A DNA stretch of 64,000 bases from Polaromonas sp. (GTDB taxonomy: Bacteria > Pseudomonadota > Gammaproteobacteria > Burkholderiales > Burkholderiaceae_C): contig NZ_JACDDD010000001.1 of assembly GCF_013817205.1 (NCBI RefSeq), forward strand, positions 1 to 64,000, given 5' to 3'. Below the pieces are notes generated by a model. The model searched no databases. It was not told the origin of the DNA and was given only the letters and a program-made list of their open reading frames with translations. This document shows, in pieces, positions 2,353 through 62,668 of this stretch. Positions within the stretch are counted from its first letter, which is position 1. Every line of letters starts with the position of its first letter. The position numbers were made by a program, and so were the translations under genes.

Positions 2353-2409
2353 CAAATCGGCCTCAAGCCCCCGTCAAATCTGCGCGAGCAGCTATCAAAA
2401 ACGTAGCGC
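2353..2409 (-). repeat. R2 interspersed repeat, intergenic between murB and fic
   Basis: Minus strand CGCTACGTTTTTGATAGCTGCTCGCGCAGATTTGACGGGGGCTTGAGGCCGATTTG. Confidence 0.8.
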
Positions 2410-2460
2410 TTCGAGGCACCGTAGAGCAGCAGCACACCCGCGCAGCAGGCTCTACCGGCC

Positions 2461-3513
2461 CTACACCACCACCGGCTCCGGCTCCAGCCGGATGCCGAAG
2501 CGTTCGTACACGCTGGTCTGGATGGCTTTTGCCAGGGTCATGACCTCGCCGCCCGTCACTGGGTTGGTGCTGCCGCCGCGGTTGACCAACACCAGCGCCT
2601 GGCGTTCGTAAACACCGGCGTTGCCTATGCTTTTGCCCTTCCAGCCGCAGGCGTCGATGAGCCAGCCGGCGGCGAGTTTGACCGAGCCGTCGGCCAGCTG
2701 GTAATGGACGATCTTGGGCTCGCGCTGGATGATGTCGGCACACTGCTCGGGCGACACCGTGGGGTTCTTGAAAAAGCTGCCGGCGTTGCCGATGACCTGG
2801 GGGTCGGGCAGCTTGGCGCGCCGGATTTCACAGACCCACTCATAAATCTGCAGCGCATCGGGCTGGACGCCCGGCGACTGGGCCATTTTTTTCTCGATAT
2901 CGGCATAACCGAGCACCGGTTTCCAAGCCTTGGGCAAGGCAAACCGCACCCGCGTGATCAGCGCCTTGCCGGCCAGACCGAGCCCGTTGGGGCCGGTGCT
3001 GCTGTGTTTGAACACCGAATCGCGGTAGCCGAAGGCGCATTGTGCGGCGTCCAGTGTGAAGGTTTTTCCGGTTGACAGGTCCACCGCGTCCAGCGACTCG
3101 AAGCGGTCCTGCAGTTCGACGCCGTAAGCGCCTATGTTCTGCACTGGCGAGCCGCCCACGGTGCCCGGGATCAAGGCCAAGTTTTCAAGGCCCGGGTAGC
3201 CCTGGTGCACGGTCCAGTCCACGATGTCGTGCCAGCTTTCACCGGCGCCGGCCTCGACGATCCAGGCCTTGGAAGTCTCGCCGACCAGCTTTTTGCCCTT
3301 GATCTCGACCTTGAGCACCAGCGGCTTGACGTCGCCGGTGATAACGATGTTGCTGCCGCCGCCCAGCACAAACTTGGGCGCGTCGCGCAGCGCCGGATCG
3401 GCCAGCACCGCGGCGATATCCTGCTCATTGGTGATGCGGACCAGGCTCAGGGCCTTGGCCATGATGCCAAAGCTGTTGGAAAACTGGAGAGGGACGTTTT
3501 TCTCGACTAACAT
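2461..3513 (-). CDS. murB: UDP-N-acetylenolpyruvoylglucosamine reductase
   Basis: [17 protein letters not shown] and [12 protein letters not shown] motifs. Confidence 0.95.
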
Positions 3514-3569
3514 CCGGGGATTGTCTCATCCGGACCGCCGCCGTCGCGTCAACCAGGAAGCCCCGAACC

Positions 3570-4055
3570 ATGCCCTCTTTTGACACCGTCCTCGAAGCCG
3601 ACCTGGTCAAGGTCAAGAATTCGGTTGAAAACACCGCCAAGGAAATCGGCACGCGGTTTGATTTCAAGGGCACGGCAGCCGCGATCGAACTCAAGGACAA
3701 GGAAATCACCCTGATTGGCGACAGCGACTTCCAGATCGACCAGATCACCGACATCCTGCGCAACAAGGCGACCAAAAGCGGCGTCGATGTGCGCTTTTTC
3801 GACGCCGGCAAGGTCGAAAAAATTGGCGGCGACAAGGTCAAGCAGGTCACCAAGGTGCGCAACGGCATCGAGACCGAGCAGGCCAAGAAGATCTCGCAAT
3901 TGATCAAGGGCAGCAAGGTCAAGGTGCAGGCCTCCATCCAGGGCGACGCGGTGCGGGTCACCGGCAAGAACCGCGACGACCTGCAGGAGGCCATGGCCAT
4001 GATCAAGGCCGAGTTGCCTGACATGCCTTTAAGCTTCAACAACTTCAGAGACTGA
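3570..4055 (+). CDS. YajQ family nucleotide-binding protein
   Basis: [11 protein letters not shown]...[11 protein letters not shown]...PLSFNNFRD. Confidence 0.95.
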
Positions 4056-4059
4056 GCCC

Positions 4060-4734
4060 ATGAATAGCGTACCTGTCCGCTCCCTGTTGGCGGGCTTGCT
4101 CGGCCTGGCTGCTTTTCTGGCCGCACCGGCGGCCATCGCCCAGAGCGTGGCACTCGCCGGCATGCTGGGCTCCAAGGCGCTGCTGGTCGTCAACGGTGCA
4201 CCACCCAAGTCGGTGGCAGCCGGTGAGACCCACATGAATGTCAAAGTGATTTCGGTCTCGGGCGACCAGGCGGTGCTGGAGCTCAATGGCAAGCGCCACA
4301 CTTTGCGGGTGGGCGATGCGCCGGTCAGCGTGGGCGCGAGCAGCGGCGGGGGCGGGGCCGGCAAGGGCACCCGCATTGTGCTCAACGCCGGCAGCGGCGG
4401 CCATTTCATGACAGCTGGCCAGATCAACGGGCGGGCGGTGCAGTTCATGGTGGACACGGGCGCCACCAGCATCGCGATGAGCGCGGCCGATGCCGAGCGT
4501 GCGGGCATCAGCTACAAAGACGGCCAGCCGGTGCGCATGAGCACCGCCAACGGCATCACCCAGGGCTTTCGCGTGAAACTTGCTTCGGTGCGCGTCGGCG
4601 ACGTCGAGGTGTATGACGTGGATGCGGTCGTCTCCCCGCAGCCCATGCCCTACATGCTGCTGGGCAACAGCTTCCTGACCCGCTTCCAGATGCTGCGCGA
4701 AAACGAGCAGATGATTCTCGTCAAGCGCTACTGA
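4060..4734 (+). CDS. Retropepsin-like (clan AA) aspartic protease, exported
   Basis: FMVDTGATSIAMS catalytic motif, signal peptide, LLGNSFLTRF. Confidence 0.88.
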   Translation: MNSVPVRSLLAGLLGLAAFLAAPAAIAQSVALAGMLGSKALLVVNGAPPKSVAAGETHMNVKVISVSGDQAVLELNGKRHTLRVGDAPVSVGASSGGGGAGKGTRIVLNAGSGGHFMTAGQINGRAVQFMVDTGATSIAMSAADAERAGISYKDGQPVRMSTANGITQGFRVKLASVRVGDVEVYDVDAVVSPQPMPYMLLGNSFLTRFQMLRENEQMILVKRY

Positions 4735-4752
4735 ACCAGGGCACGGAGCAGC

Positions 4753-5385
4753 TCAGTTTTTGGCCTTGCTGCCCAGCTTGGATTCCGTACCCTTGAGCAG
4801 CTTGTTGATGTTTTCCTTGTGCCGGAAAGCCAGGAAGGCACTCATCACAAATATCGCCAGCGCCATTGATTTTTCTGCGTACCAGAAGCTGCGGTCGCCG
4901 ATCATGTAGTACCAGGGCGCAAACAGAGCGCAGGCCAGCGAGGCCAGCGACGAGTAGCGCGAGAAAAAGGCGACGATGACCCAGGTCGCAAGCGTCGCCA
5001 GCCCCAGCACCCAGTGCACACCGAACAGCACGCCGGCGGCTGTTGCCACACCCTTGCCACCTTCGAACTTGAAGAACACCGGGTACAGGTGACCGAGGAA
5101 GGCCGCCAGACCGACGGCCGCCAGTGTGCCTTCCCTCAGGCCGTAGTCGCGGCCGAACCAGCCCACCAGCGCCATCGGCAGCCAGCCCTTGAGGGCGTCG
5201 AGCAGCAGAGTGACAACCGCTGCGGCCTTGTTGCCCGAGCGCAGCACATTGGTCGCACCCGGGTTCTTGCTGCCGTAGCTGCGCGGGTCGTTCAGGCCCA
5301 TCAGCTTGCTGACAATGACAGCAAAAGACAGTGAGCCCATCAGGTAGGCGGCCACCACGGCGATGGCGGAATAGAGATAGTCCAT
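4753..5385 (-). CDS. plsY: Glycerol-3-phosphate acyltransferase PlsY
   Basis: [51 protein letters not shown]. Confidence 0.95.
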
Positions 5386-5406
5386 GTGTTCTCCGGTGTC
5401 TTGTTT

Positions 5407-5898
5407 TTAGTCGATGAGCGCGCAGTTGACGGATTTTGCACCCAGCAGGTCCACGCACACCTGCGGCGCGATCCCGACGAGGTAGCCGCGCCGCCCGCCG
5501 TTGATGGCGATCCGGGGCAGCGCCAGAATGCTTTCCTCGATGTACACCGGCATGGTCTTGCGGGTGCCAAAGGGCGATGTCCCACCGACCAGATAACCAC
5601 TGTGCCGGTTGGCCACCTCCGGCTGGCAGGGCTCAACCGACTTGGCGCCGATTTGCCGCGCGAGATTTTTTGTCGAGACCTTGCGGTTGCCGTGCATCAG
5701 CACCAGCAGGGGTTTGCCGTCCTGGTCCTGCATCACCAAAGTTTTGACGACGGTGAAGGGATCAAAACCCAACACCTGTGCACTGTGCTGCGCGCCGCCG
5801 TGATCCAGGTACTCATAGGGGTGTTCGGTGAAAACCACATTGTTGGCCTTCAACAGCTGCGTGGCCGGTGTCTCCGAGACATGTTCCTTTTTGCCCAC
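5407..5898 (-). CDS. ybaK: Cys-tRNA(Pro) deacylase YbaK/EbsC
   Basis: ETPATQLLKANNVVFTEHPYEY, GGTSPFGTRKTMPVYIEES; GTG start chosen because the longer ORF runs through a repeat and the neighbouring gene. Confidence 0.88.
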   Translation of the reverse strand: MGKKEHVSETPATQLLKANNVVFTEHPYEYLDHGGAQHSAQVLGFDPFTVVKTLVMQDQDGKPLLVLMHGNRKVSTKNLARQIGAKSVEPCQPEVANRHSGYLVGGTSPFGTRKTMPVYIEESILALPRIAINGGRRGYLVGIAPQVCVDLLGAKSVNCALID

Positions 5899-5921
5899 AG
5901 CGGCGCCTCCGTTCAAGTGCC

Positions 5922-5998
5922 AGCGCGGAACCGGCTTTGCCGGGCCGCAGATGGCGCCCCCTGGGGGGAGGCGCCGAAGGCGCTTCGGGGGGAAGCCA
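5922..5998 (+). repeat. R1-related GC-rich interspersed repeat, intergenic copy
   Basis: GCGGAACCGGCTTTGCCGGGCCGCAGATGGCGCCCCCTGGGGGG; the first half matches the copy at 58251. Confidence 0.7.
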
Positions 5999-6001
5999 TA
6001 T

Positions 6002-7066
6002 TTAAAGCGCCGGGTCGCGCAATTCCCAACGGATGGTGTCAATCGCAGCCAGCAACTCGGGCGACAGCTCCGTGCCCCACGCATCCAGGTTCTCATCAAG
6101 TTGCGCGACCGAGGTGACGCCGATGATGGTGCTGGCGACCTGCCATTTGCCGTAACAAAAGGCCAGTGCCATTTGCGTGGGCGTCAGGCCATGCTCGCGC
6201 GCCAGCGCGTTGTAGCGGCGCGCGGCGGCCAGCGCCTCGGGCCGGCCCCAGCGCTGCTTGCGCACGGTTTCGAATTTGGCGATACGCGCTTCGGCCGGTA
6301 CGTCCGGGCCGGTGGTCCCGCTCTGGTCGTACTTGCCGGTAAGCAGGCCGAAGCCCAGCGGCGAATAGGCCAGCAGCGACACGCCCAGCCGATGCATGCT
6401 CTCGTCGAGGCCGTTTTCCACCGTGCGGTTAACCAGGCAGAACGGGTTTTGCACCGTGGCCACTTTGGCCAGGCCCATCTGGTCAGCCAGACGCACGAAC
6501 TCGTGCACACCATAAGGCGTTTCGTTGGACAGGCCGATGGCCCGCACCTTGCCCGCCCTGACCAGGCCGTCCAGGGCTTCGAGCTGGTGCTCGATGCTGC
6601 TGACTGGTTTGTCTTTGGCGGGGTCGAAATACGCCACGCCGAAAGCCGGCACATGGCGGGCAGGCCAGTGAATCTGGTACAGGTCAATAACGTCAGTCTG
6701 CAGGCGCCGAAGGCTGTCCTCGCAGGCCTGCACGATGTCACTGGCCGTCAGGTCAGGGCTGCCCTTGCGGATCCAGTCCATGCCGCGCGCCGGGCCGGCG
6801 ACCTTGGTCGCCACCACCATCTTGCCGCGCGCGCCGGGGCGGCTGGCGAACCAATTGCCGATGATGGTCTCGGTCGCGCCAAAGGTTTCAGCGCGCGCCG
6901 GCACCGAATACATTTCCGCCGCATCGAGAAAATTGACACCACGCTCCAGCGAGCGGTCAAGAATGGCGTGGGCGCTGGCTTCGTTCACCTGCTCACCGAA
7001 GGTCATGGTGCCCAGACAAAGGGGGGTGACCTTCAGGTCGCTGCTGCCGAGTTGGACTTGGTTCAT
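6002..7066 (-). CDS. Aldo/keto reductase (Tas-like)
   Basis: MNQVQLGSSDLKVTPLCLGTMTFGEQ...NFLDAAEMYSVP. Confidence 0.92.
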   Translation of the reverse strand: MNQVQLGSSDLKVTPLCLGTMTFGEQVNEASAHAILDRSLERGVNFLDAAEMYSVPARAETFGATETIIGNWFASRPGARGKMVVATKVAGPARGMDWIRKGSPDLTASDIVQACEDSLRRLQTDVIDLYQIHWPARHVPAFGVAYFDPAKDKPVSSIEHQLEALDGLVRAGKVRAIGLSNETPYGVHEFVRLADQMGLAKVATVQNPFCLVNRTVENGLDESMHRLGVSLLAYSPLGFGLLTGKYDQSGTTGPDVPAEARIAKFETVRKQRWGRPEALAAARRYNALAREHGLTPTQMALAFCYGKWQVASTIIGVTSVAQLDENLDAWGTELSPELLAAIDTIRWELRDPAL

Positions 7067-7268
7067 GGATTCACTACGGGTTCAATAAGGGCTATGAGGG
7101 AAAACAGGGGTGGCTGACCCCAACAATTTTAAAGCGTGCAAAACACGCCCTTGCCGCGCAGGCACTCGGGCGTTTGACTTACAAGTCCCCGGAGCTGCCG
7201 CGCCTAAGATGCTCCACACAAGCGCGCACTCGGCGTGCTTTGCCAAACAACTTTCCAGGAGAAAATCC

Positions 7269-9297: not shown

Positions 9298-11181
9298 TCA
9301 GCCTGCCTGGAGGAAGCGTTGCTCCTCTTGCAGCCGGAGCACGCGGCGCTGGACCTTGCCGGTGGTGGTCATGGGCAGTGCGGCTATGAACTCGATCTCC
9401 TTGGGGTATTCGTAAGGCGCCAGCAGTCCCCGCACATGGTTTTGCAGTTCTGCTACCAGTTCAGCATCAAATTGGCCCTCAGCCCCCGTCCGACGGGCGC
9501 GGGCAGCTATGAAATCAGGAGCAAGCACAACATAGGCCTTGACCAGCGCGCCGCGCTCCCGGTCCGGCTTGGGCACCACTGCGGCGTTCGCCACCGCCAG
9601 GTGTTTGACGAGGCAATTCTCGATCTCGCCGGGGCCGATGCGGTAGCCGGCGGCCTTGAACACGTCGTCGGCACGCCCCTGGTACCAGAGATAGCCATCG
9701 GCGTCGCGCGTGGCGAGGTCGCCGGTGCGGCACCAGTCACCGGTGAATTTGGCCTGTGTCGCCGCCTCCTTCTTCCAGTAGCCCAAAAAGAAAATCGGGT
9801 CGGCATGGCGATGGATGTCAAAGCGGTTGACGGCCACATCGCCAGCCACACCGACGGCGCATTCATTGCCCTCGTCGTTTATCACCGCCACCCTGTGCCC
9901 AGGGTAGCCCTTGCCCATGCTGCCGGGCCGTGCTGGCCACAGTGCAGAACAGTTGCCGACGATGTAGTTGATTTCGGTCTGGCCGAACATCTCATTGACA
10001 AGCACACCGAGCTCGTCGCGGCAGTAAGCAAACACCGCGTCGCCCACCGCCTCGCCGGCGCTCATCATGGCCCGCAACTTCAGTTTGAAGTGCTTTCGCG
10101 GCTGCGGGTAGGCCTTCATCATGGCTTTGAGCGCTGTCGGAAACAAAAAGGTGTGGGTCACGCCCTGTTGCTGCATCAGGCTGAAGGCCAGCTCCGGGCT
10201 AAAGCGGCCGTTGAAAGCCACAATCGGCCGACCGAAGTACAGCGTCGGCAGCAGCGCATCCATCAGGCCGCCCGTCCAGGCCCAGTCCGCCGGTGACCAG
10301 AAAACGCTTTGCGTTTCTGGCTCCGGCAGACTGGGCTTTGCCCCTTTCAGGCTCGCCCCCACCCGACCCCTCCCCCGGCCGGGGGAGGGCATCCCGACTT
10401 CGCTCCCCCGCGCGGGGGAGGGGGTCGGTACACCACCGTCAGTGGGGAAACCAAACCAGTTCTGGCTGCAGACAAACCCGGGCAGGTTGCCGATCAGCGC
10501 ACGGTGCGCCAGCAATGCGCCCTTGGGCGGGCCGGTGGTGCCGCTGGTGTAGATCAATATGGCTGCGTCGTCGGCTTTGGTTTTGACGGCGGTGAATGCG
10601 CGCTGCTGCGCGGCCACCGCAGCCTCGTAATCCACGTCGCCCTGCCCCGCAGCCGCGCCGGCGGCGATCACCGTGCGCAGGGCCGGGCAGCGGCTGCGCA
10701 CGACCTGGATGTTGTCCATGGAGCTTTCGTCGCAGATGGCCAGCACCGCGTCGCTGTCCTGCAGGCGATATTCCAGCGCCTCGGGTCCGAACAGCATGGA
10801 CAGCGGCATGGCCACTGCGCCCATCTGAAACACCGCCATGTAGGCCACCGCAGTTTCAAAACGCTGCGGCATCACGATGGCAACCCGGTCACCGCGTTTG
10901 ACGCCGAGTTCCACCAGCACATGGCTGAGCGCATCGGCTGCCGCCTGCAGCTGGAAATAGGTATAAAAAATACCCTCAGCCCCCGACTGGTGGGCGCGGA
11001 TAGCTATTCTTTTTGTAGCATCCGGCATCTCTGCCCAGCGTCGTGAGCAAACGCCGGCAATGTTGAAGTATTCATCGACCTGCCACCGAAAGCCGGCGTG
11101 CAGGGCGTCGTAAAGATCGGGGGGCTTGGCGGTCGCGTTGTCCCTGCCTTTACTCGTAGGCGGTGCAAGTCTCTTTATCAT
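9298..11181 (-). CDS. AMP-binding acyl-CoA synthetase containing three in-frame repeat insertions
   Basis: LIYTSGTTGPPKGALL, FWSPADWAWTGG, GQTEINY; insertions at 9468-9524, 10315-10455 and 10965-11020. Confidence 0.9.
   Translation of the reverse strand: MIKRLAPPTSKGRDNATAKPPDLYDALHAGFRWQVDEYFNIAGVCSRRWAEMPDATKRIAIRAHQSGAEGIFYTYFQLQAAADALSHVLVELGVKRGDRVAIVMPQRFETAVAYMAVFQMGAVAMPLSMLFGPEALEYRLQDSDAVLAICDESSMDNIQVVRSRCPALRTVIAAGAAAGQGDVDYEAAVAAQQRAFTAVKTKADDAAILIYTSGTTGPPKGALLAHRALIGNLPGFVCSQNWFGFPTDGGVPTPSPARGSEVGMPSPGRGRGRVGASLKGAKPSLPEPETQSVFWSPADWAWTGGLMDALLPTLYFGRPIVAFNGRFSPELAFSLMQQQGVTHTFLFPTALKAMMKAYPQPRKHFKLKLRAMMSAGEAVGDAVFAYCRDELGVLVNEMFGQTEINYIVGNCSALWPARPGSMGKGYPGHRVAVINDEGNECAVGVAGDVAVNRFDIHRHADPIFFLGYWKKEAATQAKFTGDWCRTGDLATRDADGYLWYQGRADDVFKAAGYRIGPGEIENCLVKHLAVANAAVVPKPDRERGALVKAYVVLAPDFIAARARRTGAEGQFDAELVAELQNHVRGLLAPYEYPKEIEFIAALPMTTTGKVQRRVLRLQEEQRFLQAG
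9468..9524 (-). repeat. R2 interspersed repeat, in frame in acyl-CoA synthetase
   Basis: Minus strand TTGCTCCTGATTTCATAGCTGCCCGCGCCCGTCGGACGGGGGCTGAGGGCCAATTTG, read as ..IAARARRTGAEGQF. Confidence 0.85.
10315..10455 (-). repeat. GC-rich double-hairpin repeat, in frame in acyl-CoA synthetase
   Basis: CCCTCCCCCGGCCGGGGGAGGG and CTCCCCCGCGCGGGGGAG palindromes; adds about 45 aa between SQNW and SVFWSPADW. Confidence 0.85.
10965..11020 (-). repeat. R2 interspersed repeat, in frame in acyl-CoA synthetase
   Basis: Minus strand TGCTACAAAAAGAATAGCTATCCGCGCCCACCAGTCGGGGGCTGAGGGTATTTTTT, read as ATKRIAIRAHQSGAEGIF. Confidence 0.85.
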
Positions 11182-11188
11182 CACTCCA

Positions 11189-12214
11189 ATGTACAAAGAA
11201 AAACGCATCTCCCGCAGCGAGTTAGTCCCTATACGTGGTATCACCTACCGCGTCCGCATCTGGCAGTCCCCGCAGACTGACGCCTCGGCCGCTAGCGCCG
11301 GGCCGCCCCAAGCAAGGCCAGCCCCCTCGGGGGGCAGTGAACCACACGCAGTGGGGAACGTGGGGGTACCACTTGTACTGGTACACGGCTGGATGGATGT
11401 CTCCGCGTCTTACCAGTTTGTGGTGGATGCCCTGTCTGACGCGTTTGTCCAGGGCCGCAGCATCATCGCGCCTGACTGGCGTGGCTATGGCCAGACCGGA
11501 ACAGGGGGGGCAGACAACTTTTGGTTTCCGGACTATTTGGCCGACCTCGATTTCCTGCTGGACCACTACGCCGGCGACCACCCGGTGGACCTGGTTGGCC
11601 ACAGCATGGGCGGCAATGTCGCCATGCTCTACGCCGGCGTGCGACCGGCCCGCATTCGCAAGCTGATTAACCTGGAGGGTTTCGGCATGCCTGCCACCCG
11701 CGCCAGCCAGGCACCGGGACGTTTTGCCAAATGGATGGACGAGCTCAAGAGCCTGCACAAGGGCGAGATGGCGCTCAAGCCCTACAAGGACGCCGATGGC
11801 GTGGCCCGCCGGCTGATGCGCACCAACCCCCGCCTGAGCCAGGACAAGGCCGACTGGCTGGCCCGGCACTGGGCTGCCCCCGACGCCCAGGGCCAGTGGA
11901 ACATTCTGGGCGACGCGGCCCACAAGATCACCAACGCGCAGCTTTACCGCGTCGACGAGGTGCTGGAAATCTACCGCAACATCAGCGCGCCCACGCTGGC
12001 CATCGAGGCCTCGGACGACTCCCTGGGCAAATGGTGGCAAGGCAAATACACACTGGCCGAATACCACGAGCGCCTGAAATCCGTGCCACAAATCAGCACC
12101 GCCGTCATTCAGGACGCCGGCCACATGCTGCACCATGACCAGCCCGCGCAGCTCGCACAGCTGATCGGGGACTTTCTGGGCCAGGAATCTGCGCCGCAGC
12201 CCTCGCCCACGTAG
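11189..12214 (+). CDS. Alpha/beta hydrolase with in-frame R1 insertion near the N-terminus
   Basis: LVHGWMDVS, LVGHSMGGNVAMLYAG nucleophile elbow, DAGHMLHHDQP; AGPPQARPAPSGGSEPHAVGNVGV insertion. Confidence 0.9.
   Translation: MYKEKRISRSELVPIRGITYRVRIWQSPQTDASAASAGPPQARPAPSGGSEPHAVGNVGVPLVLVHGWMDVSASYQFVVDALSDAFVQGRSIIAPDWRGYGQTGTGGADNFWFPDYLADLDFLLDHYAGDHPVDLVGHSMGGNVAMLYAGVRPARIRKLINLEGFGMPATRASQAPGRFAKWMDELKSLHKGEMALKPYKDADGVARRLMRTNPRLSQDKADWLARHWAAPDAQGQWNILGDAAHKITNAQLYRVDEVLEIYRNISAPTLAIEASDDSLGKWWQGKYTLAEYHERLKSVPQISTAVIQDAGHMLHHDQPAQLAQLIGDFLGQESAPQPSPT
11297..11370 (+). repeat. R1 interspersed repeat, in frame in alpha/beta hydrolase
   Basis: GCCGGGCCGCCCCAAGCAAGGCCAGCCCCCTCGGGGGGCAGTGAACCACACGCAGTGGGGAACGTGGGGGTA. 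Confidence 0.85.
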
Positions 12215-20396: not shown

Positions 20397-21013
<617 letters not shown>

Positions 21014-23250: not shown

Positions 23251-23308
23251 TTTGCTACATATTTTATAGCTATGTGCGCTTGATGCATAAGGGCTGGAGG
23301 CCGAATTA
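23251..23308 (+). repeat. R2 interspersed repeat, intergenic after the SDR gene
   Basis: TTTGCTACATATTTTATAGCTATGTGCGCTTGATGCATAAGGGCTGGAGGCCGAATTA. Confidence 0.8.
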
Positions 23309-30170: not shown

Positions 30171-30226
30171 AAAATCGGGCTACAGCCCTCGTCTGACGGG
30201 GACATGCAGCTATGGAATTCATAGCG
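30171..30226 (-). repeat. R2 interspersed repeat, intergenic
   Basis: Minus strand CGCTATGAATTCCATAGCTGCATGTCCCCGTCAGACGAGGGCTGTAGCCCGATTTT. Confidence 0.75.
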
Positions 30227-33590: not shown

Positions 33591-36530
33591 ATGGCGGACA
33601 ACTCGATTTCAGACAGTGTCAACGAAAAACACGCAGCGTCGGAAGGTGTCGCCGAGTTCCGGCGTCAGGAAATCCTGCTCAAGACCGGCGCCCTGCAGGA
33701 CGCCATCTTCAACAGCGCCAATTTCTCCAGCATTGCGACCGATGAAAAAGGCGTAATCCAGATCTTCAACGTCGGCGCCGAGCGCATGCTCGGATATGTC
33801 GCGTTGGATGTCGTCAACCAGGTCACGCCAGCCGACATCTCCGACCCGCGCGAACTTGTAGCTCGGGCAGAAGCCCTGAGTCTGGAACTCGGCACGCCGA
33901 TCACGCCGGGTTTCGAGGCGCTGGTGTTCAAGGCCTCACGCGGCATTGAAGACATTTACGAGCTGACCTACATCCGCAAGGACGGCAGCCGCTTTCCGGC
34001 CATTGTCTCGGTCACCGCCTTGCGCGATGACCAGCAGACCATCATCGGCTACCTGCTGATCGGCACCGACAATACGGCCCGCAAACAGGCAGAAGTAGCC
34101 CTGCGCGAGGCGGGCGCGCTGCAAAACGCGATTTTCAACAGCGCCAACTTCTCCAGCATCGCCACCGATGAAAAGGGCGTGATCCAGATTTTCAACGTGG
34201 GCGCCGAGCGCATGCTCGGTTACGCAGCCACCGATGTGCTGAACAAGATCACCCCCGCCGACATTTCCGACCCGCAGGAAGTCATTGCACGTGCTCAAAA
34301 CCTGAGTCTGGAGCTCGGCACACCGATCACACCGGGCTTTGAGGCGCTGGTCTTCAAGGCCTCACGCGGTATTGAAGACATTTACGAGCTGACCTACATC
34401 CGCAAAGACGGCAGCCGCTTTCCGGCCATCGTGTCTGTGACAGCGCTGCGAGATGCGCAGGAGGGCATCATCGGCTACCTGCTGATCGGCACCGACAACA
34501 CCGCCCGCAAGGAAGTCGAGGCAGCCCAAGAACTGCTGGACCAGCGCCTGCGCGATCAACAGTTCTACACCCGTTCGCTGCTCGAATCCAACATCGATGC
34601 GCTGATGATGACCGATCCACAGGGATTCATCTCCGACGTCAACCAGCAGATGATGACGCTGACCGGCAGGACGCGCGACGAGTTGATCGGTGCACATTGC
34701 AAGAACTTCTTTACTGATCCGGCGCGGGCCGAAGCGGCTATCAAGCGCGTGCTCACCGAAAACAAGGTCAGCAACTACGAGCTCACGGTGCGCGCCCAGA
34801 ATGGTGAGGAAACCGTGGTCTCTTACAACGCCGCCACCTTCCAGGACCGCGACCGCAAACTGCAAGGCGTGTTTGCCGCCGCGCGTGACGTGACCGAGCG
34901 CAAACGTTTTGAGCGCGCCCTGCAGGAGAAAAACCTCGAACTTGAACACGCCAGCAGCATGAAGTCCGAGTTTCTGGCCATCATGTCGCATGAGCTGCGC
35001 ACGCCGCTGAACGCCATCATTGGTTTTTCTGAAGCACTCAAGGACGGTCTCATGGGCGAGATGAGCGCCACGCAACAGGAATACATTGGAGACATCTTCA
35101 CCAGCGGCCAGCACCTGTTGTCATTGATCAACGATATCCTGGATTTGTCCAAGGTTGAGGCCGGCATGATGTCACTGGACCTGGAGGCGTTGGATATGCA
35201 CCGCCTGCTGGCGGGCAGCCTGTCCATCGTGAAGGAAAAAGCGCTGAGTCAGCGCATCACCCTGGAACTGGAAACCACCGACGGCCTGGGCCAGCCGCTG
35301 CTGGACATGCGCAAGACCAAGCAGATCGTTTACAACCTGCTGGCCAATGCGGTCAAGTTCAGCCCCCGCGGCGCACGTGTGACGCTCAGTGCGCGGCGCG
35401 TTCCGCGCCATAGCGCGGGGCTGTTGTCCGGCGCCTGGCCGGTACACAGCTTCCCGCTGGCAGACAGCGAGTTCGCGGAGTTCGTGGAAATCGCCGTTAG
35501 TGACAGCGGCATCGGTATCTCCCGGCCCAACATGGGAAAGCTGTTCCAGCCCTTCAGCCAGATCGACAGCAGTCTGGCCCGCAAGTTCGAAGGCACAGGC
35601 CTGGGACTGGCCATGGTCAAACAGCTGGCCGAGCTGCATGGCGGTACTGTTGCGGTGGCCAGCGCTGAAGGTGAAGGCGCGCGTTTTGCTGTCTGGTTGC
35701 CGCTGCGCACTGACGTGCCGGCAGATACCGACCCGGTACTGCCCAACCTGGCGGCGCCCGCCTCCGACACCCAGCGCACGGCACTGGTGATCGAGGACAA
35801 CGACCAGGCGGCCGACCTGGTGCGGCTGCTGCTCGAAGCTGAAGGATTCACCGTGGTGCGCGCCGCGAGTGCTGAAGAAGCCCTGCTGCTGGCACCGCAG
35901 TACACGCTGAGCCTGATCACCCTGGACATCGAGTTGCCGGGCATCAACGGCTGGGAGTTTCTGGCCCGCGTGCGCGACAGCGGCAAGCTGGCCCACGTGC
36001 CGGTGGTTATCATTTCGGGCATGGCCGGCAAGCTAGGCCTGACGCGCGGGGCGGCGGCGGTGCTGCAAAAACCCATCAGCCGTGCGCAGCTCAAGATGTC
36101 TCTGGCCAGTCTGGGCCTGCACCCGGTGGCTGAGCAGACCTGGACCGTGCTGGTGGTAGATGACGATCCCAAGGCCGTGGAAGTGATTGCGGCTTTCCTG
36201 CCCAGCCCGTCGTATGCCGTCGTGCGCGCCTACGGCGGGGCCGAGGCCATCACTCTGGCCCAGAGGCTGAGGCCGGACCTGATTTTTCTCGACCTGATGA
36301 TGCCCGAGGTCAGCGGCTTCGATGTGGTCGAGGCGCTGCATCGCAACAGCGAAACCGCTCGCATCCCGATCCTGGTGGTCACGGCTAAACAGATCACGGA
36401 CGGGGATCGCAAAACCTTGAACAAAGACCACGGCAATGTCGTTCACATTGTTGAGAAAGCCGGCTTGAACCAGGCGCACTTTCTCGACGAAGTCAGGCGG
36501 GCGCTGCCGCAACTGCAAAAGGGAAAGTGA
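33591..36530 (+). CDS. Multi-PAS hybrid sensor histidine kinase with two C-terminal receiver domains
   Basis: Tandem near-identical PAS domains, a third [33 protein letters not shown], two REC domains. Confidence 0.92.
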   Translation: MADNSISDSVNEKHAASEGVAEFRRQEILLKTGALQDAIFNSANFSSIATDEKGVIQIFNVGAERMLGYVALDVVNQVTPADISDPRELVARAEALSLELGTPITPGFEALVFKASRGIEDIYELTYIRKDGSRFPAIVSVTALRDDQQTIIGYLLIGTDNTARKQAEVALREAGALQNAIFNSANFSSIATDEKGVIQIFNVGAERMLGYAATDVLNKITPADISDPQEVIARAQNLSLELGTPITPGFEALVFKASRGIEDIYELTYIRKDGSRFPAIVSVTALRDAQEGIIGYLLIGTDNTARKEVEAAQELLDQRLRDQQFYTRSLLESNIDALMMTDPQGFISDVNQQMMTLTGRTRDELIGAHCKNFFTDPARAEAAIKRVLTENKVSNYELTVRAQNGEETVVSYNAATFQDRDRKLQGVFAAARDVTERKRFERALQEKNLELEHASSMKSEFLAIMSHELRTPLNAIIGFSEALKDGLMGEMSATQQEYIGDIFTSGQHLLSLINDILDLSKVEAGMMSLDLEALDMHRLLAGSLSIVKEKALSQRITLELETTDGLGQPLLDMRKTKQIVYNLLANAVKFSPRGARVTLSARRVPRHSAGLLSGAWPVHSFPLADSEFAEFVEIAVSDSGIGISRPNMGKLFQPFSQIDSSLARKFEGTGLGLAMVKQLAELHGGTVAVASAEGEGARFAVWLPLRTDVPADTDPVLPNLAAPASDTQRTALVIEDNDQAADLVRLLLEAEGFTVVRAASAEEALLLAPQYTLSLITLDIELPGINGWEFLARVRDSGKLAHVPVVIISGMAGKLGLTRGAAAVLQKPISRAQLKMSLASLGLHPVAEQTWTVLVVDDDPKAVEVIAAFLPSPSYAVVRAYGGAEAITLAQRLRPDLIFLDLMMPEVSGFDVVEALHRNSETARIPILVVTAKQITDGDRKTLNKDHGNVVHIVEKAGLNQAHFLDEVRRALPQLQKGK

Positions 36531-38553: not shown

Positions 38554-38651
38554 AGCGCGATGCGCTGCCACGGGCGCACACATGCTTTGCGTCATCCGGG
38601 CACAATCGTGAAAGCAGCCTGCCCGCAGCGCCCACAGCAAACCGCGATACG

Positions 38652-38706
38652 CTCTGCTTTTGATAGCATCATACGCAAGAGGGTCGCGGGCTGAGGCATG
38701 ATTTTA
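38652..38706 (+). repeat. R2-like interspersed repeat, degenerate, upstream of the MFS gene
   Basis: TCTGCTTTTGATAGCATCATACGCAAGAGGGTCGCGGGCTGAGGCATGATTTTA. Confidence 0.5.
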
Positions 38707-41591: not shown

Positions 41592-42065
41592 CTACACATG
41601 GCCTTTCTTGCGTGTCAGCACCGCCTTGGGTGTGACCTGCGCATCAGCTAGCTCATGCAAGGCCTCGATGATGTGGCAATGGGTGTCACTGCCGTCGCAG
41701 CGGTCGCGCAGGGCCTTGAGGTCTTTTTCCAGCGCCCTGAGTTCCGCCAGCCGCGCGCGCACATGGCCCAGGTGCCCGTCCAGCGCCTCACGCGCAGCTG
41801 CGCAGTCTGACTTGTTGTTGAGGTCCAGCCCCAGCAAGGTGCGCACCTCGTCAAGCGACATGTCCATGGCCCGGCACAGGCGGATGAAGCGCAGCTGGTG
41901 CACATCGCCATCGCTATAAAATCGATAGCTGTTGTCGCTTCTCCCATGCGGGCTGAGCAGCTTTTCTTTCTCATAAAACCGGATGTTGGCGGCGCTGACG
42001 CCGCTGCGCCCGGCGGCCTCGCCAATCTGATAACCCCGCACCGGGAGTGGACTTGAAGCAGGCAT
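41592..42065 (-). CDS. MerR-family Cd/Pb-responsive-type regulator (CadR/PbrR-like)
   Basis: MerR HTH YQIGEAAGRSGVSAANIRFYEKEKLL; metal-site cysteines in NNKSDC, RDRC and DTHC. Confidence 0.88.
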   Translation of the reverse strand: MPASSPLPVRGYQIGEAAGRSGVSAANIRFYEKEKLLSPHGRSDNSYRFYSDGDVHQLRFIRLCRAMDMSLDEVRTLLGLDLNNKSDCAAAREALDGHLGHVRARLAELRALEKDLKALRDRCDGSDTHCHIIEALHELADAQVTPKAVLTRKKGHV

Positions 42066-43185: not shown

Positions 43186-43626
43186 ATGCGCCGCCCCTTC
43201 TTCATTGCCATGATCTTCCTGCTGCTGCTGCGCGGAATGGTGGGCGATGCCATGGCCGCAGGCATGGCCTTTGGTCATCTGCAAAAAGGCTCTGTTGCTA
43301 CAGAAACAATAGCTACTCACGGCCATGGGGAAAGAGCTGACGGCCTTTTTGACCATGAAAACGCAGCGCAATCGGTGGCATACCCGGTGGCAACACCTGC
43401 CGATTGCGCGGGACACGCCGCTGGCGAGGTCAGTGGCCCCGTACAACAGGAAACGGCGGGACACTGCGAATCGTGTGCAGCCTGCCAAGCCTGCAACACG
43501 GTAGCGCTGTCATCCCCGACAACAAGCACCGCCTCCCTGGCGGCTCCTCCTGCTCTGCCGCGCTCGCCGGCTGCCGACTTTGCCAGCGCCATCGCCGCGC
43601 TGGGTCAAAAACCACCCATTTCCTGA
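43186..43626 (+). CDS. Small exported Cys-rich protein with in-frame R2 insertion
   Basis: Signal peptide; HCESCAACQACN; paralogue of 48873..49241; VATETIATHGHGERADGLF encoded by R2. Confidence 0.7.
   Translation: MRRPFFIAMIFLLLLRGMVGDAMAAGMAFGHLQKGSVATETIATHGHGERADGLFDHENAAQSVAYPVATPADCAGHAAGEVSGPVQQETAGHCESCAACQACNTVALSSPTTSTASLAAPPALPRSPAADFASAIAALGQKPPIS
43293..43352 (+). repeat. R2 interspersed repeat, in frame in Cys-rich protein
   Basis: TGTTGCTACAGAAACAATAGCTACTCACGGCCATGGGGAAAGAGCTGACGGCCTTTTTGA. Confidence 0.8.
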
Positions 43627-46922: not shown

Positions 46923-47510
46923 ATGACGATCCGATTTACTCCCAAATTGATAGCTGCTTGCGCTTTATTGGCGGGGGCTGGAGGCACATTTGGCCAACAT
47001 TCCCACCCGCCATCACACAACGCCAGTCCGTATGCGGGCCAGCAAGCGCGTGAGATCAAGTCCCTCTCGCCCGAGCAGACCGCCGACTTGCTGGCTGGCA
47101 AAGGCATGGAGCTGGCGAAAGCCGCCGAGCTTAACGGCTACCCCGGTCCCATGCACACGCTGGAGCTGGCCACGCAACTTGAGCTGAGCACTGAACAAAA
47201 GCAAGCCAGTCAAGCGCTGATGACCCGCCACAAAGCCGAAGCGCGCGACCTGGGTCCCCAACTGGTCGAAGCCGAACGCGCGCTGGACCGCGCTTTCTCG
47301 TCGCGCCAGATCGACGCAGCCCGGCTGGCGACACATACCGAACGCCTTGGCCAGTTGCAGGCCCGGTTGCGCATGTCGCACCTGGAAACACACCTGCAGC
47401 AGACCGCGCTGCTGACACCCACGCAGATCTCTCGTTATGCACAGTTGCGCGGCTACACAAGTTCTGTTGGCACACCAGCGCCGGTCGCCGCCCCCACCCA
47501 CAAGCACTGA
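46923..47510 (+). CDS. Spy/CpxP-like periplasmic protein; signal peptide core encoded by R2
   Basis: Spy-like helical region LSTEQKQASQALMTRHKAEA; N-terminus MTIRFTPKLIAACALLAGAGGTFGQH. Confidence 0.8.
   Translation: MTIRFTPKLIAACALLAGAGGTFGQHSHPPSHNASPYAGQQAREIKSLSPEQTADLLAGKGMELAKAAELNGYPGPMHTLELATQLELSTEQKQASQALMTRHKAEARDLGPQLVEAERALDRAFSSRQIDAARLATHTERLGQLQARLRMSHLETHLQQTALLTPTQISRYAQLRGYTSSVGTPAPVAAPTHKH
46943..46993 (+). repeat. R2 interspersed repeat forming a signal-peptide core
   Basis: CAAATTGATAGCTGCTTGCGCTTTATTGGCGGGGGCTGGAGGCACATTTGG. Confidence 0.85.
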
Positions 47511-50775: not shown

Positions 50776-50836
50776 CTTGCTACAGTTTTGATAGCTGCTT
50801 GCGCCCACCAGCCATGGACTACAGGTCTTTTTCGCC
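50776..50836 (+). repeat. R2 interspersed repeat, intergenic
   Basis: CTTGCTACAGTTTTGATAGCTGCTTGCGCCCACCAGCCATGGACTACAGGTCTTTTTCGCC. Confidence 0.8.
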
Positions 50837-50878: not shown

Positions 50879-52315
50879 ATGCTATGGTTGCGCATGCCGA
50901 AAACCATACGCTACACCCTGCTGTCACTTCGCGACCTGTGGGCGTCGGCCGGGCCTTTCATCGTGCTGGCTGTCGCCATGCTGATGCTGGCCTACTGGTG
51001 GCTGGACCCGAACCCGCCCAATCGCGTGACACTGGCCACCGGGCCGGCGCAAAGCGCCTATGAAGAGTTTGGTAGACGCTACGCCAAAATCCTGGCGGAA
51101 GATGGCATTGAAGTGGTGCTCTTGCCCTCGCAGGGATCGGCACACAACCTGCAACTGCTGCGCGAAGGCAAGGCCGACCTGGGCTTTGTGCAGGGCGGCA
51201 CCAGTGAGCAAAAGCCCGAAGACGAGGAAAATCTGGAGTCGCTCGGCAGCCTGTTTGTCGAACCTGTTTGGCTGTTCTATCGTGAAGAAGCGGCGCGCAA
51301 AGCAGCGGCGGGTAGCGACGGCGTGCGCCGCGCCGGGCCGCCCCAAGCAAGCACAGCCCCCTTACCCAATGAAAAGGGCAGCGTAACGCCTCTGGCACGC
51401 GAAGCGACCAGCGTGGGGGCCTTAAATTCATTGACGCAACTCCAGGGTTGGCGTATCAACGTGGGAACGCCTGGCAGCGGAATTCCCAGCCTGATGAACA
51501 AGCTGCTGGAGAGCAACAAGGTAGACATCACCACGCTGAAAACGTCGGAGCTTGAGCAGACCCCCGCCACAGTGGCTTTTCTGGAAGGCAATATCGACGC
51601 CATCGTGTTTGCCTCTGCCCCCGAATCACTGATGGTGCAGATGCTGCTGCAAACCCCCGGCGTCAAACTCATGGACTTTCCGCAGAGCGAAGCCTACTCG
51701 CGCCGCTTTGCATTTCTGAGCCCCGCGCTGCTTCCGCGTGGCGTGGTGGACCTTGCAGCCAACATTCCGGCGCAAGACGTGCGGCTGGTGGCGCCTACGA
51801 CTGCACTCATCAACCGCACCGGCACCCACCCGGCCCTTCTGCAGTTGTTTGTGCAGGCGGGCAACCAGATTCACAGCACTGCAGGCTGGTTCAAACGGGC
51901 GCGCGAATACCCCAACTTGACCAACAACGAGCTGCCAATTTCCGCTGAAGCTGAACGCAGCATTAAAAGCGACAAGCCTTTTTTGCAACGCTACCTGTCC
52001 TTCTGGGTAGCCAACCTGGTCGAGCGCATGTGGTTGGTGATGGGCATCATCATCGCCATCATGCTGCCGCTGTCACGCATCGTGCCGCCGCTGTACGAGT
52101 TTCGCGTGCGCTCACGCATTTTCAAATGGTATGGCCAGCTGCGCGACATTGAAAACCGCATTGAAGGCACGGGCGACAACAGCGCGTTATTTGAAGAGCT
52201 CGACACCCTTGAAGCCCGCGCAGAAAAGATCAGTGTGCCGCTTTCATACACCAATGAGTTGTATGCGCTGCGCAGCAATATCCATTTGGTGCGCAAGAAA
52301 TTGCAGCGTTTATAG
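50879..52315 (+). CDS. TAXI-family TRAP transporter solute-binding protein with in-frame R1 insertion
   Basis: VTLATGPAQSAYEEFGRRYAKIL, INVGTPGSGIPSLMNKLL; AGPPQASTAPLPNEKGSVTPLAREATSVGA insertion. Confidence 0.85.
   Translation: MLWLRMPKTIRYTLLSLRDLWASAGPFIVLAVAMLMLAYWWLDPNPPNRVTLATGPAQSAYEEFGRRYAKILAEDGIEVVLLPSQGSAHNLQLLREGKADLGFVQGGTSEQKPEDEENLESLGSLFVEPVWLFYREEAARKAAAGSDGVRRAGPPQASTAPLPNEKGSVTPLAREATSVGALNSLTQLQGWRINVGTPGSGIPSLMNKLLESNKVDITTLKTSELEQTPATVAFLEGNIDAIVFASAPESLMVQMLLQTPGVKLMDFPQSEAYSRRFAFLSPALLPRGVVDLAANIPAQDVRLVAPTTALINRTGTHPALLQLFVQAGNQIHSTAGWFKRAREYPNLTNNELPISAEAERSIKSDKPFLQRYLSFWVANLVERMWLVMGIIIAIMLPLSRIVPPLYEFRVRSRIFKWYGQLRDIENRIEGTGDNSALFEELDTLEARAEKISVPLSYTNELYALRSNIHLVRKKLQRL
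51333..51422 (+). repeat. R1 interspersed repeat (longer variant), in frame in TAXI gene
   Basis: GCCGGGCCGCCCCAAGCAAGCACAGCCCCCTTACCCAATGAAAAGGGCAGC...AGCGTGGGGGCC. Confidence 0.8.
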
Positions 52316-57013: not shown

Positions 57014-57037
57014 GCCAAGCTTCCAACTGGAGACACC

Positions 57038-57271
57038 GTGCCCTACATCCTTATCCAGGTGACCCGCGAGGGGGTCAGCCCGACACAGAAGGCCGAACTC
57101 ATTGCCGGCGCCACGGACCTGGTGGTGCGCGTTCTGGGCAAAGACCCGGCCACTACCTTTGTGGTAATCGAAGAGATAGATACTGATAACTGGGGTGTGG
57201 CTGGTCAAAGTGTGACAGCACTGCGCAGGCAACAAAGCGCGGCATCGGTTCAATTAACTCCGGGCGCATGA
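57038..57271 (+). CDS. Tautomerase family protein
   Basis: PYILIQVTREGVSPTQKAELIAGATDLVVRVLGKDPATTFVVIEEI; GTG start. Confidence 0.85.
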   Translation: MPYILIQVTREGVSPTQKAELIAGATDLVVRVLGKDPATTFVVIEEIDTDNWGVAGQSVTALRRQQSAASVQLTPGA

Positions 57272-57272
57272 C

Positions 57273-58207: not shown

Positions 58208-58250
58208 CGGCGCCACCGGAACCCGCGATGTAGTCCCCTTCCAGCAGGGG

Positions 58251-58332
58251 CCGCGGAACCGGCTTTGCCGGGCCGCAGGCGCAGCGCCCCCCCGGAGGGC
58301 AGTGCAGTACACGAAAGTGACAAGCGTGGGGG
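58251..58332 (+). repeat. R1 interspersed repeat, intergenic, abutting the ettA stop codon
   Basis: GCGGAACCGGCTTTGCCGGGCCGCAGGCGCAGCGCCCCCCCGGAGGGCAGTGCAG...CAAGCGTGGGGGC. Confidence 0.75.
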
Positions 58333-58334
58333 CA

Positions 58335-59996
<1,662 letters not shown>

Positions 59997-60283
59997 CAGG
60001 ATCAACTTCTAAAAAAAGGGAGATAACAAAAGGAAGACGAAGAGCGCAAGCCAGCCCAGGATTCTCGGGGATTTTTTGCGGCAATCTCCTGATTATCGTT
60101 CCGTGCGACAATACCCACGTTGCTCGCTCCAGTTGCCTGCGACATTCGGGCACACCTCTGTGACAGTATCGGCAACGATTCAAGGTGTTTTTGGCCCAAC
60201 TCCTGACCCCAATCTGCCTTTGACTGGCGGGACGCCCACAAGCTCCCACAGGCCGATCCTGAGCACCCCAGCGGTGCAAAAAA

Positions 60284-62029
60284 ATGACCTTTGAAAATCT
60301 GAATCTGGCCCCGGCCATTCTTAAAGCCGTGCTTGAGCAGGGCTACGACACCCCCACCCCTATCCAGGCCCAGGCGATTCCCGCCGTGCTTGCAGGCGGC
60401 GACCTGCTGGGCGGCGCCCAGACCGGTACCGGCAAGACAGCAGCTTTCGTGCTGCCCATGTTGCAGCGCCTGTCGAGCGAGCCCTCGCTGAAAAACAAGC
60501 GCGGCGTCAGCGCCGTGCGCTGCCTGATCATGACGCCGACACGCGAACTCGCCGCCCAGGTCGAGGAAAGCGTGCGCCTTTACGGCAAATACCTCGATCT
60601 CTCCTCCATGGTGATGTTCGGCGGTGTCGGCATGGGCGCGCAGATTGAGAAGCTGCGCCGCGGCGTCGATATTCTCGTGGCCACCCCCGGCCGCCTGCTC
60701 GACCACGCCAGCCAGGGCACACTGGACCTGGGCCAGGTGCAAATCCTGGTGCTTGACGAAGCCGACCGCATGCTGGACATGGGTTTTATCCACGACATCA
60801 AAAAGGTGCTGGCGCTGGTGCCCAAGCAGAAGCAGTCGCTGCTGTTTTCCGCCACCTTCAGCGACGAGATCCGCGAGCTGGCCAACGGCCTGCTGAAGAA
60901 TCCGCAAAGCATTCAGGTGACACCGCGCAACACCACGGTGCAGCGCATCACGCAAACCATTCACCCGGTCGGCCGCGGCAAGAAAAAAGCGCTGCTCACC
61001 CACATCATCAACGAGCACAACTGGAGCCAGGTGCTGGTGTTCACTCGCACCAAATTCGGCGCCAACAATGTGGCCGAACACCTGACCAAAAACGGCATTC
61101 CGGCGATGGCGCTGCATGGCAACAAGAGCCAGACCGCCCGCACTCAGGCGCTGGCCGACTTCAAGAGCGGCAGCATACGCGCGCTAGTGGCCACCGACAT
61201 CGCCGCGCGCGGCATCGACATTGACGAACTGCCGCACGTCGTGAACTATGAAATCCCCAACGTCAGCGAAGACTACGTGCACCGCATCGGCCGTACCGGC
61301 CGCGCCGGCAACGACGGCGCGGCGGTGAGCCTGGTGTGTCTGGATGAAGAAGGCTTCATGCAGGACATCGAACGCTTCACCAAGCAGAACATCGAAGTGG
61401 TGGCTGTCGCCGGCTTTGAAGCCGAGCCCGGCGAAAAGGCCGAGCCGCTGGCCATGGGCCGCCAGACCATCTGGGGCGGCCTCGGCAAGCCCCCTAGCCG
61501 CGACGTGATGCAGGCCGCTGCCAAGGCGGCTAGATCCGAAATGATGACGCGCATCCGTGAAACCAAACCACAAGGTGGCCGTGGTGGCAACGCTGGCGGC
61601 AACAACGGCAGCGGCGGTGGCGGTGGCGGACGAGGCCGCAACGGCGGTGGCGGTGGCGGCAATGGTGGTGGCCGCAGCCAGCCTCAGGGCGGCCAGCCAC
61701 GCCAGAATTCCGGCTATTCGCAAGGTGGCCAGCCAGCGCATCACCAGGTACGCAACCAGAACGCGCAGCCCCCACGCCCACGCAACACGCAGGAGCGCGA
61801 CGATGACGCCCAACCCACCAGCCACGTCTCTTCCGGCTTCCCTTCTTCCGGCCAGCCCACAGGCGGCAACCGCGGCAACTACCGTGGCGGCGGACGCCCA
61901 TCGGGCGGCGGCGGTGGCGGCGGACGCCCATCGGGCGGCGGCGGTGGTGGCGGACGCTCGGGTGGCGCTGGTGGCCGGGGCAACGGGTCTGGTCGGTCGG
62001 GGAATTCTGGCTCGTTTACTGGCCGATAA
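60284..62029 (+). CDS. rhlE: DEAD-box RNA helicase RhlE-like with Gly-rich C-terminus
   Basis: [39 protein letters not shown]; Gly/Arg-rich tail. Confidence 0.93.
61891..61965 (+). repeat. 30-bp tandem repeat in the rhlE Gly-rich tail
   Basis: Units CGGACGCCCATCGGGCGGCGGCGGTGGCGG at 61891 and 61921 (one mismatch), degenerate third from 61951. Confidence 0.85.
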
Positions 62030-62600
62030 ACGGTATTCGGCGGTCCACTGCATGGGCCGGCGCAAACCGGAGGTGGTGCACGCCAAACTGGTGAGCCACC
62101 TCAGCCCGGACTTCGCAACTTTCGAGGCGCCTGCGGTGGACGATGTGTTCATCGCCCTCGGCACCACAATCAAGGTCGCCGGCAGCCAGCAGGCTTTCCG
62201 CGCCGTCGACTTTGACGCCGTGCTGGCCGTGGCCCGTTCGGCGCGGGCCGCTGGCGCACGCAGGCTGGGCATCGTCAGCGCCATGGGTGCCAACGCCAAA
62301 TCGTCCGTCTTTTACAACCGCGTCAAGGGCGACATGGAAGATGCCGTCGGTCAACTCGGCTATGAAACGGTGGTGTTGGCCCGCCCCTCGCTGCTCAGCG
62401 GTGACCGCAGTTCCCTCGGCCAGCCCCATCGCGCGGCAGAAAAATTCGCAGCGACGGCCATGCGCCTGCTGAGGCCCCTGACGCCCGCCAACTACCGCGC
62501 AATCGACGCTGCGGATGTGGCCGCCGCGCTGGTGAGCAGTGTGCTGGCAGCTTCCCCAGGCCACACCGTGCTGCTGTCGAGCGACATGCAGCCCCGCTGA
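61944..62600 (+). CDS. NAD(P)-binding Rossmann-fold/NAD-epimerase-like protein overlapping the rhlE 3' end out of frame
   Basis: [39 protein letters not shown] candidates at 61944, 61947, 61962; rhlE stop at 62029. Confidence 0.8.
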
Positions 62601-62610
62601 GGTTTCAAGT

Positions 62611-62668
62611 CTTTTAGCCATCCAGCCCTTGTCCAGATTGAACAAGCAGCTACCATTTCGATAGCAAT
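62611..62668 (-). repeat. R2 interspersed repeat, intergenic
   Basis: Minus strand TTGCTATCGAAATGGTAGCTGCTTGTTCAATCTGGACAAGGGCTGGATGGCTAAAAG. Confidence 0.75.

Follow-up and report, generated by a model that had tools for sequence, protein, structure and literature searches.

Genomic features of the window

The window analysed here, positions 1 to 64,000 of contig NZ_JACDDD010000001.1 of Polaromonas sp. (assembly GCF_013817205.1), carries eleven copies of an interspersed DNA motif of about 55 bp that occurs both between and within genes, and whose origin, maintenance and possible reader are the subject of this report. Intergenic copies are found at 2354..2408 (minus strand, matrix score 66; the copy is conserved at the orthologous place in congener G176), 23253..23307 (plus, 62), 30172..30226 (minus, 59, between convergent genes), 38650..38704 (plus, 42, degenerate) and 50778..50832 (plus, 58), and the copy at 62612..62666 (minus, 56) is intergenic or lies at a gene edge. 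Two copies, at 9469..9523 (minus, 64) and 10966..11020 (minus, 54), occupy sense frame 0 of the same gene (9298..11181, minus strand), which encodes an AMP-binding, acyl-CoA synthetase-like protein, P0001 (PF00501, PF13193). The copy at 41912..41966 (plus, 38) runs antisense within a gene at 41592-42041 on the minus strand. Another, at 43296..43350 (plus, 49), lies in an open reading frame (ORF), 43186-43626, for which there is weak support as a coding sequence; our codon-based gene caller did not call it, and it has no Pfam match. Finally, the copy at 46937..46991 (plus, 58) extends across the start of ORF 46923-47510 and, read in frame 0, seems to provide a Metal_resist-domain protein with its signal peptide, MTIRFTPKLIAACALLAGAGGTFGQ (window 46923-46995).

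The first-pass annotation of this DNA had recognised ten copies of a repeat family, with a spacing of 14 codons between the ATAGCT-like and the terminal TTT-like triplets. The family is real and often lies within genes: all ten copies are present at the places and on the strands given and align without gaps over 62 columns, and the constant spacing in these ten, the four peptides quoted and the in-frame TGA in three intergenic copies are correct. The eleventh, 41912-41966 on the plus strand, which is antisense and in another frame, had been overlooked. Four copies were taken as genic; those placed at 9468 and 10965 are indeed internal to a well-supported gene, the one at 46943 instead forms a start or signal peptide, and the one at 43293 lies in a small ORF. 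The motif reaches upstream to TTGCTAY-N7-ATAGCT, and its final triplet, TTT in the majority of copies, varies (AAA at 62611, AT-rich variants elsewhere).

Anatomy and abundance of the motif

Beyond the window, the source genome was sampled in 40 further stretches, which with the window make up 0.81 Mb (815 kb) or 22% of 3.77 Mb, and all genome statistics rest on this sample. An initial search with an imperfect pattern gave 50 matches (0 with the reversed pattern), and an alignment of 33 copies then yielded a sequence-only model (R1) and a position matrix; a second model is called R2. The position matrix found 147 copies in the 815 kb, separated from the background by a wide score gap, and 0-1 in the reversed sequence. 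Since the window copies score 38-66, compared with a top score of 8.4 across 20 shuffled windows, and since the reversed sequence is practically empty, chance is ruled out as an explanation. The density of about 180 copies per Mb extrapolates to about 680 per genome, and several congeners have a similar density.

Numbered from the A of ATAGCT as +0, the unit extends from -13 to +41 (about 55 bp), with a weaker A/T signal (AA) that reaches +50. Its consensus in this genus is TTGCTAY-N7-ATAGCTGCTTGCGC-N11-GGGCTGGAGGCC-N2-TTT, and its information content is about 50 bits. Two dyads are centred at -4 and +19, i.e. 23 bp apart, in this genus and in other genera alike. The left palindrome, GCTA-N9-TAGC, is almost never found outside full copies and is thus not an independent unit. 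Mutual information on 144 copies of this genome revealed no base-pairing covariation and next to no long-range linkage, so that there are no subfamilies; the associations that were found are local word swaps (TTT/AAA at 39-41, CC/TT/AG at 14-15, AA/GG at 23-24). The motif is shown to be a recognition site on double-stranded DNA, about 55 bp long, that holds about 50 bits and has two dyads.

Genomic placement, strand and reading frame

Per base, copies are ten-fold denser between genes than in genes. The intergenic ones favour gene 3' ends and convergent gene pairs (19 observed, 9.1 expected) and are depleted between divergent genes (8 observed, 16 expected). The copies as a whole are spread evenly across all contigs sampled, with no preference for a region or macrodomain, and their spacing in this genome is more regular than chance would give (variance/mean 0.38 per 20 kb, p = 7e-4; 4 close pairs compared with 12 expected at random). 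No replication polarity was found in this genome and in genome G100 (strand against GC skew, p = 0.39), and KOPS (FtsK orienting polar sequences) and Chi were rejected as identities of the motif, the orientation of which does not follow replication.

Genes were called with a codon-based caller of our own, which assigns 90% of the sequence as coding and agrees with long ORFs; 64 of the 147 copies lie wholly within called genes, and the hosts of many copies are essential genes. Host proteins across the genome include, by NCBIfam assignment, PurL, IleS, PepN, GcvP, LigA, DapE, Dxr and LpxB, together with a Nif3-like protein and a nicotinate-nucleotide adenylyltransferase. According to the first-pass annotation, genic copies would always be read in one fixed frame and on the gene strand. 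The strand is in fact random, with 63 sense and 81 antisense copies among the pooled internal ones (p = 0.16), and two frames are preferred and not one; the part of the claim that stands is that the frame is strongly non-random. Among copies situated 60 nt or more inside a gene of this genome (n = 58), 18 are in the annotated frame (S0), 27 in the antisense frame A2 and 13 in the remaining four frames. Pooled with other species and genera (n = 144), the counts are 48 for S0, 57 for A2, 13 for A1, 11 for A0, 11 for S2 and 4 for S1, and uniformity is rejected (p = 4e-21). The S2 and A1 registers contain a TAG that stems from the GCTA...TAGC palindrome, and a six-frame reading of intergenic copies shows that S0 and A2 have few stops and the most proteome-like composition among the usable frames. 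The two are preferred because they give a tolerable, stop-free peptide; the frame bias is thus a filter by the tolerability of the encoded peptide and not a property of insertion. A bias derived from pre-existing near-matches was rejected, as the best background matches in coding sequence show no preference for S0 or A2.

Genic copies arise by substitution

Up to 26 genic sites were compared with their orthologues in two motif-free species, the congener G182, with 1 copy in 148 kb, and G115 from another genus, with 0 copies, fetched by chimeric protein queries. Windows around the motif showed zero length change in 18 of 26 cases against G182 and in 12 of 24 against G115, and a step of at least 14 residues was seen in one window only (DapE against G115, 19 residues). 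The acyl-CoA synthetase-like gene illustrates the pattern: its two copies, 1.5 kb apart, are both kept in G183, G154, G176 and G164, while in G182 and G175, which have neither, the protein differs by 0-3 residues in length at the first site and not at all at the second. The copy at 9469..9523 is accordingly absent from G182 and G175 in a gap-free alignment, and at 10966..11020 the protein aligns without gaps to PDB entry 5u2a. LigA and Dxr, the two further hosts checked, also align without gaps to solved homologues of their own across the motif segments. Control windows from the same genes were gap-free in 92% and 87% of cases; they are more conserved and less prone to indels than the motif windows, which indicates that the motif sits in permissive, variable segments of its host proteins.

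There is likewise no sign of copying between sites. No pair among 146 copies reaches 85% identity, and identity averaged over all pairs is 0.542, the same as expected after shuffling of the columns, with a slight excess at 70-80% that could stem from variation in copy quality. Some intergenic copies do differ as whole blocks between species. For the genic copies, the alignments show that they arise and decay mainly by nucleotide substitution in existing sequence and not by insertion, because solved homologues and, for the most part, motif-free orthologues align without a length step. The first-pass annotation had proposed insertion into genes; the gap-free alignments with motif-free orthologues and distant solved homologues contradict it, an outcome that the annotation itself had named as refuting. 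The host protein sequence at these sites is ancestral and not inserted, but rewritten to fit the DNA motif.

The motif is conserved at the level of DNA

The force that keeps the copies in place was assessed with 22 gap-free orthologous genic copies of this genome and its congener G183 (about 83% DNA identity). At high-information columns of the motif, 73 of 76 third codon positions are identical (96%), compared with 1975 of 3031 (65%) in the flanks (p = 2e-10). At low-information columns, identity of the third positions (59/114) falls below that of the flanks, and so does that of the first and second positions. Against the motif-free G182, 19 of 62 high-information third positions are identical (31%). 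The motif is spelled in rare codons (relative adaptiveness 0.51 compared with 0.79), e.g., ATA, which accounts for 5% of Ile codons, and GCT, which accounts for 9% of Ala codons. The motif persists in G183 at 23 of 24 genic sites, and many of these sites in G182 have scores intermediate between those of real copies and those of random sequence, which is expected of decay after loss of the motif. Copies are therefore conserved at positions that are indifferent to the protein, which suggests that the DNA itself is read, and the comparison shows, in the orthologues at hand, that the motif is held by a constraint on the DNA itself.

Taxonomic distribution and dialects

Exact matches among GTDB genomes fall nearly all within Comamonadaceae, in Polaromonas, Rhodoferax, Simplicispira, Giesbergeria, Acidovorax, Hydrogenophaga, Comamonas and other genera; one matching Pseudomonas scaffold is probably a contamination. 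Of the 151 genomes in the GTDB family, model R1 matched 53, and a search of the class with R2 gave a single weak match outside the family. The right half of the motif exists in dialects, GCGCCCG..AAGGGC in this genus and GCGCTTG-N5-CAAGCGC in several other genera. Within the genus, copy number ranges from many to none, complete motif-free genomes included. The possibility that G182 hides another dialect was rejected: it has no over-represented word comparable to the motif, and R2 finds only 3 matches in it.

Other repeats in the window

Within the gene for P0001, and separate from its two motif copies, the segment at 10315-10440 (residues ~248-289) encodes a low-complexity stretch, PTPSPARGSEVGMPSPGRGRGRVG..., at which the alignment of orthologues breaks; it resembles a further interspersed repeat translated as protein, with a length that differs between species. 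A second repeat family (11296-11340, 20426-20470 and 51331-51375) is built around GCCCCCTCGGGGGGCAG, which is among the most over-represented words in the genome sample. A 38-nt repeat with an inverted repeat, CGCGGAACCGGCTTTGCCGGGCCGCAG, is present at 5924-5961 and 58252-58289, and its word CGCGGAACC is enriched in the congener G183 as well. Two direct duplications were also found, one of 160 nt with 91% identity (165-324 and 1099-1258) and one of 300 nt with 83% identity (33674-33973 and 34100-34399).

Comparison with known motifs and repeats

Parts of the motif have been reported before. A survey of spaced motif pairs by Tong, Schliekelman and Mrazek in 2017 gave two separate and unexplained pairs, ATAGCT(N)22CAAAAG with 125 copies in Polaromonas naphthalenivorans CJ2, of which 18 are genic and 34 lie between convergent genes, and GCTTAT(N)5AAGCG with 114 copies in Acidovorax ebreus TPSY, and found in Rhodoferax ferrireducens the most motif pairs among all genomes scanned (PMC5217627). 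In register, the first pair fits the motif at +0..+5 and +28..+33 and the second its right dyad, and the matches of these pairs in the loci analysed lie inside motif copies in 1 of 1 case for the first and, with either strand counted, in about 6 of 10 cases for the second. From this register and the few matches we infer that both pairs are fragments of the motif family. They share its preference for intergenic and convergent locations, whereas its length, substitution origin, DNA-level constraint, dialects and loss are not described there. A literature search for the motif sequence itself returned chance primer matches only. The first-pass statement that the family had no prior description thus holds for the whole unit and not for these two fragments; judging by the open-access literature searched, the whole unit, its substitution origin and the DNA constraint appear to be new.

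The parallel drawn earlier with Rickettsia palindromic elements does not survive. Those elements are likewise repeats inside genes with a biased reading frame, but they are inserted and measure about 150 bp (PMC10969869), whereas the motif has 55 bp, is not inserted, occurs on either strand and in two frames, and does not form a hairpin in this genus. Several other bacterial signals are genome-wide DNA motifs that include coding sequence (HIP1, KOPS, Chi, and the matS, Noc and SlmA sites); all are short, KOPS and Chi are strand-polar, and the sites of matS, Noc and SlmA type are confined to regions or much less numerous. In contrast to these, the motif is long, non-polar and evenly distributed.

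A candidate signal of self-recognition

The closest likeness is to the DNA uptake sequences (DUS) of Neisseriaceae and the uptake signal sequences (USS) of Pasteurellaceae. USS "evolve by point mutations ... not inserted elements" (PMC7811141), DUS are conserved above their surroundings and yet lie in permissive places (PMC2397512), and DUS dialects are documented (PMC3630211); the comparison of substitution origin, of permissive and non-random genic placement and of the lack of orientation draws also on PMC2346458. Like the motif, DUS and USS are dispersed in hundreds of copies, evolve by substitution, are conserved above their surroundings, sit in permissive spots, are under-represented in coding sequence, have a non-random genic placement and lineage dialects, and show no general replication orientation. 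To our knowledge, motifs that spread by rewriting sequence and not by inserting it are known only as uptake sequences from two bacterial families. By analogy, some factor would read the motif, and its presence would drive or select the copies: motif-bearing DNA might be taken up and recombined preferentially, so that alleles with the motif would build up at permissive sites by molecular drive, as happens with DUS and USS; after loss of the uptake preference a lineage would then lose the motif by mutation, and dialects might evolve in lineages with a changed reader. We give a probability of roughly one half to the reading that the DNA-uptake machinery of natural transformation is what reads the motif. 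That it represents a third, independently evolved family of uptake-type self-recognition signals, in Comamonadaceae, about 55 bp long and bound by a dyad-binding machine, may be suggested tentatively.

Several points weigh against an uptake signal. Cores of USS and DUS measure 9-12 bp (about 30 bp for USS with their A/T tracts), and the motif, at four to five times the length of such cores, is no short core; it has two dyads and about 50 bits, and we know of no uptake motif that reaches 50 bits. It also differs from DUS and USS in its unrelated sequence, in the bacterial family that carries it and in its density (180 compared with about 1000 per Mb). Where lengths of orthologous windows differ, the motif-bearing protein is mostly the longer one (7 of 8 cases against G182, 10 of 12 against G115), and a minority of copies may have come with insertions, as DapE is 19 residues longer than in G115. 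Even spacing is not clear in G100 (variance/mean 0.81). Most of the same patterns would, moreover, be predicted by a chromosome-organising protein. Motif-rich and motif-free genomes both have ComEC (PF03772); it therefore discriminates nothing and neither supports nor refutes uptake.

The chromosome-organising protein is the main alternative. Here the motif would be a chromosome-wide site of a nucleoid protein that binds as two dimers side by side on the dyads spaced 23 bp apart, each site would be under ordinary purifying selection, and sites would arise by substitution wherever the protein sequence permits. The retention of both dyad centres in both dialects, the even spread over the sampled contigs and the strong site-by-site conservation are as this explanation has it, the swaps of A/T runs (TTT/AAA at 39-41) without covariation are expected of double-stranded, shape-reading recognition, and the information in the motif exceeds what is needed for finding a site. 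Unlike matS, parS, KOPS and Chi, however, the motif has no preference for a region, macrodomain or strand, and its patchy loss among congeners, complete genomes of 4-5 Mb included, would be odd for core architecture. We regard such a site as rather unlikely.

Another self-marking or recombination signal on double-stranded DNA, e.g., for nuclease protection or as a recombination stimulator, would be in keeping with an apparent rarity of the motif on mobile replicons. The query found 0 matches in 2.3 Gb of phage records and 1 in 7.3 Gb of plasmid records, a weak test, as the query recovers only about 32 of the 147 copies and the hosts may lack the motif; two Polaromonas plasmids (100 kb) had 0 copies, and their hosts, too, may lack it. 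Chi-type signals are strongly strand-oriented, which the motif is not, and we consider this explanation improbable. As a separate observation, a stretch of plasmid pOS401 of Comamonadaceae bacterium OS-4 (positions 180001-230000) carries two copies, one strong (score 65) and one weak (22), and has a block with purF, cvpA, dedD, folC and metZ that is located between Tn3-family and IS91-family transposase genes and looks like captured chromosome.

A mobile element, be it related to repetitive extragenic palindromic (REP) sequences and their transposases (REP-associated tyrosine transposases, RAYT), a miniature inverted-repeat transposable element (MITE) or similar to the Rickettsia palindromic elements, would have been inserted and would then have decayed. 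The ten-fold intergenic enrichment, a block of about 56 bp with an intergenic copy of G183 (L241:12936) that is missing in G154, G175 and G182, and the greater length of DapE and of the second acyl-CoA synthetase site compared with outgroups are what such an element might leave behind. The gap-free orthologues, the lack of similar pairs and subfamilies and the conservation of 23 of 24 sites across species run counter to it, and the sole RAYT of the genome (PF01797, L210) has no motif copy in the surrounding 3.3 kb locus. REP sequences and bacterial interspersed mosaic elements (BIME) were rejected, as 64 of 147 copies are wholly genic and not extragenic and the RAYT is not flanked by the motif; a MITE was rejected in view of the absence of pairs at 85% identity or above, of subfamilies and, in most genes, of an insertion step. 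For genic copies the mobile-element reading is largely refuted, and overall it is very improbable.

A structured RNA element or transcription terminator is hardly credible: the right dyad of other genera is an inverted repeat (GCGCTTG-N5-CAAGCGC) with one covarying pair (14-24), which may reflect the dialects, and intergenic copies prefer gene 3' ends and convergent pairs, but the strand is random relative to genes, a G.G mismatch in the right dyad of 125 of 145 copies of this genus means that hairpin formation is not required there, folding energy is unremarkable in most copies, and RNA structure found no support in this genus from RNAalifold, mutual information (144 copies), pair tests (484 copies, no covarying pair) or Rfam (no match).

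Whatever its reader, the motif reflects a force on the DNA that suffices to bring rare codons and amino-acid changes to fixation in LigA, PurL, IleS, Dxr, PepN, GcvP and LpxB, and protein variation at motif sites is therefore not readable as protein adaptation. If the reader were a nucleoid protein, the motif would be a new class of chromosome-wide architectural site. If it is an uptake-type signal, it would greatly exceed all others known in length and be one written by substitution into housekeeping genes, and its dialects and repeated losses could reveal the receptor. In this large environmental family, the presence of motif-rich and motif-free species in one genus constitutes a natural experiment, and a comparison of gene content could name the reader.

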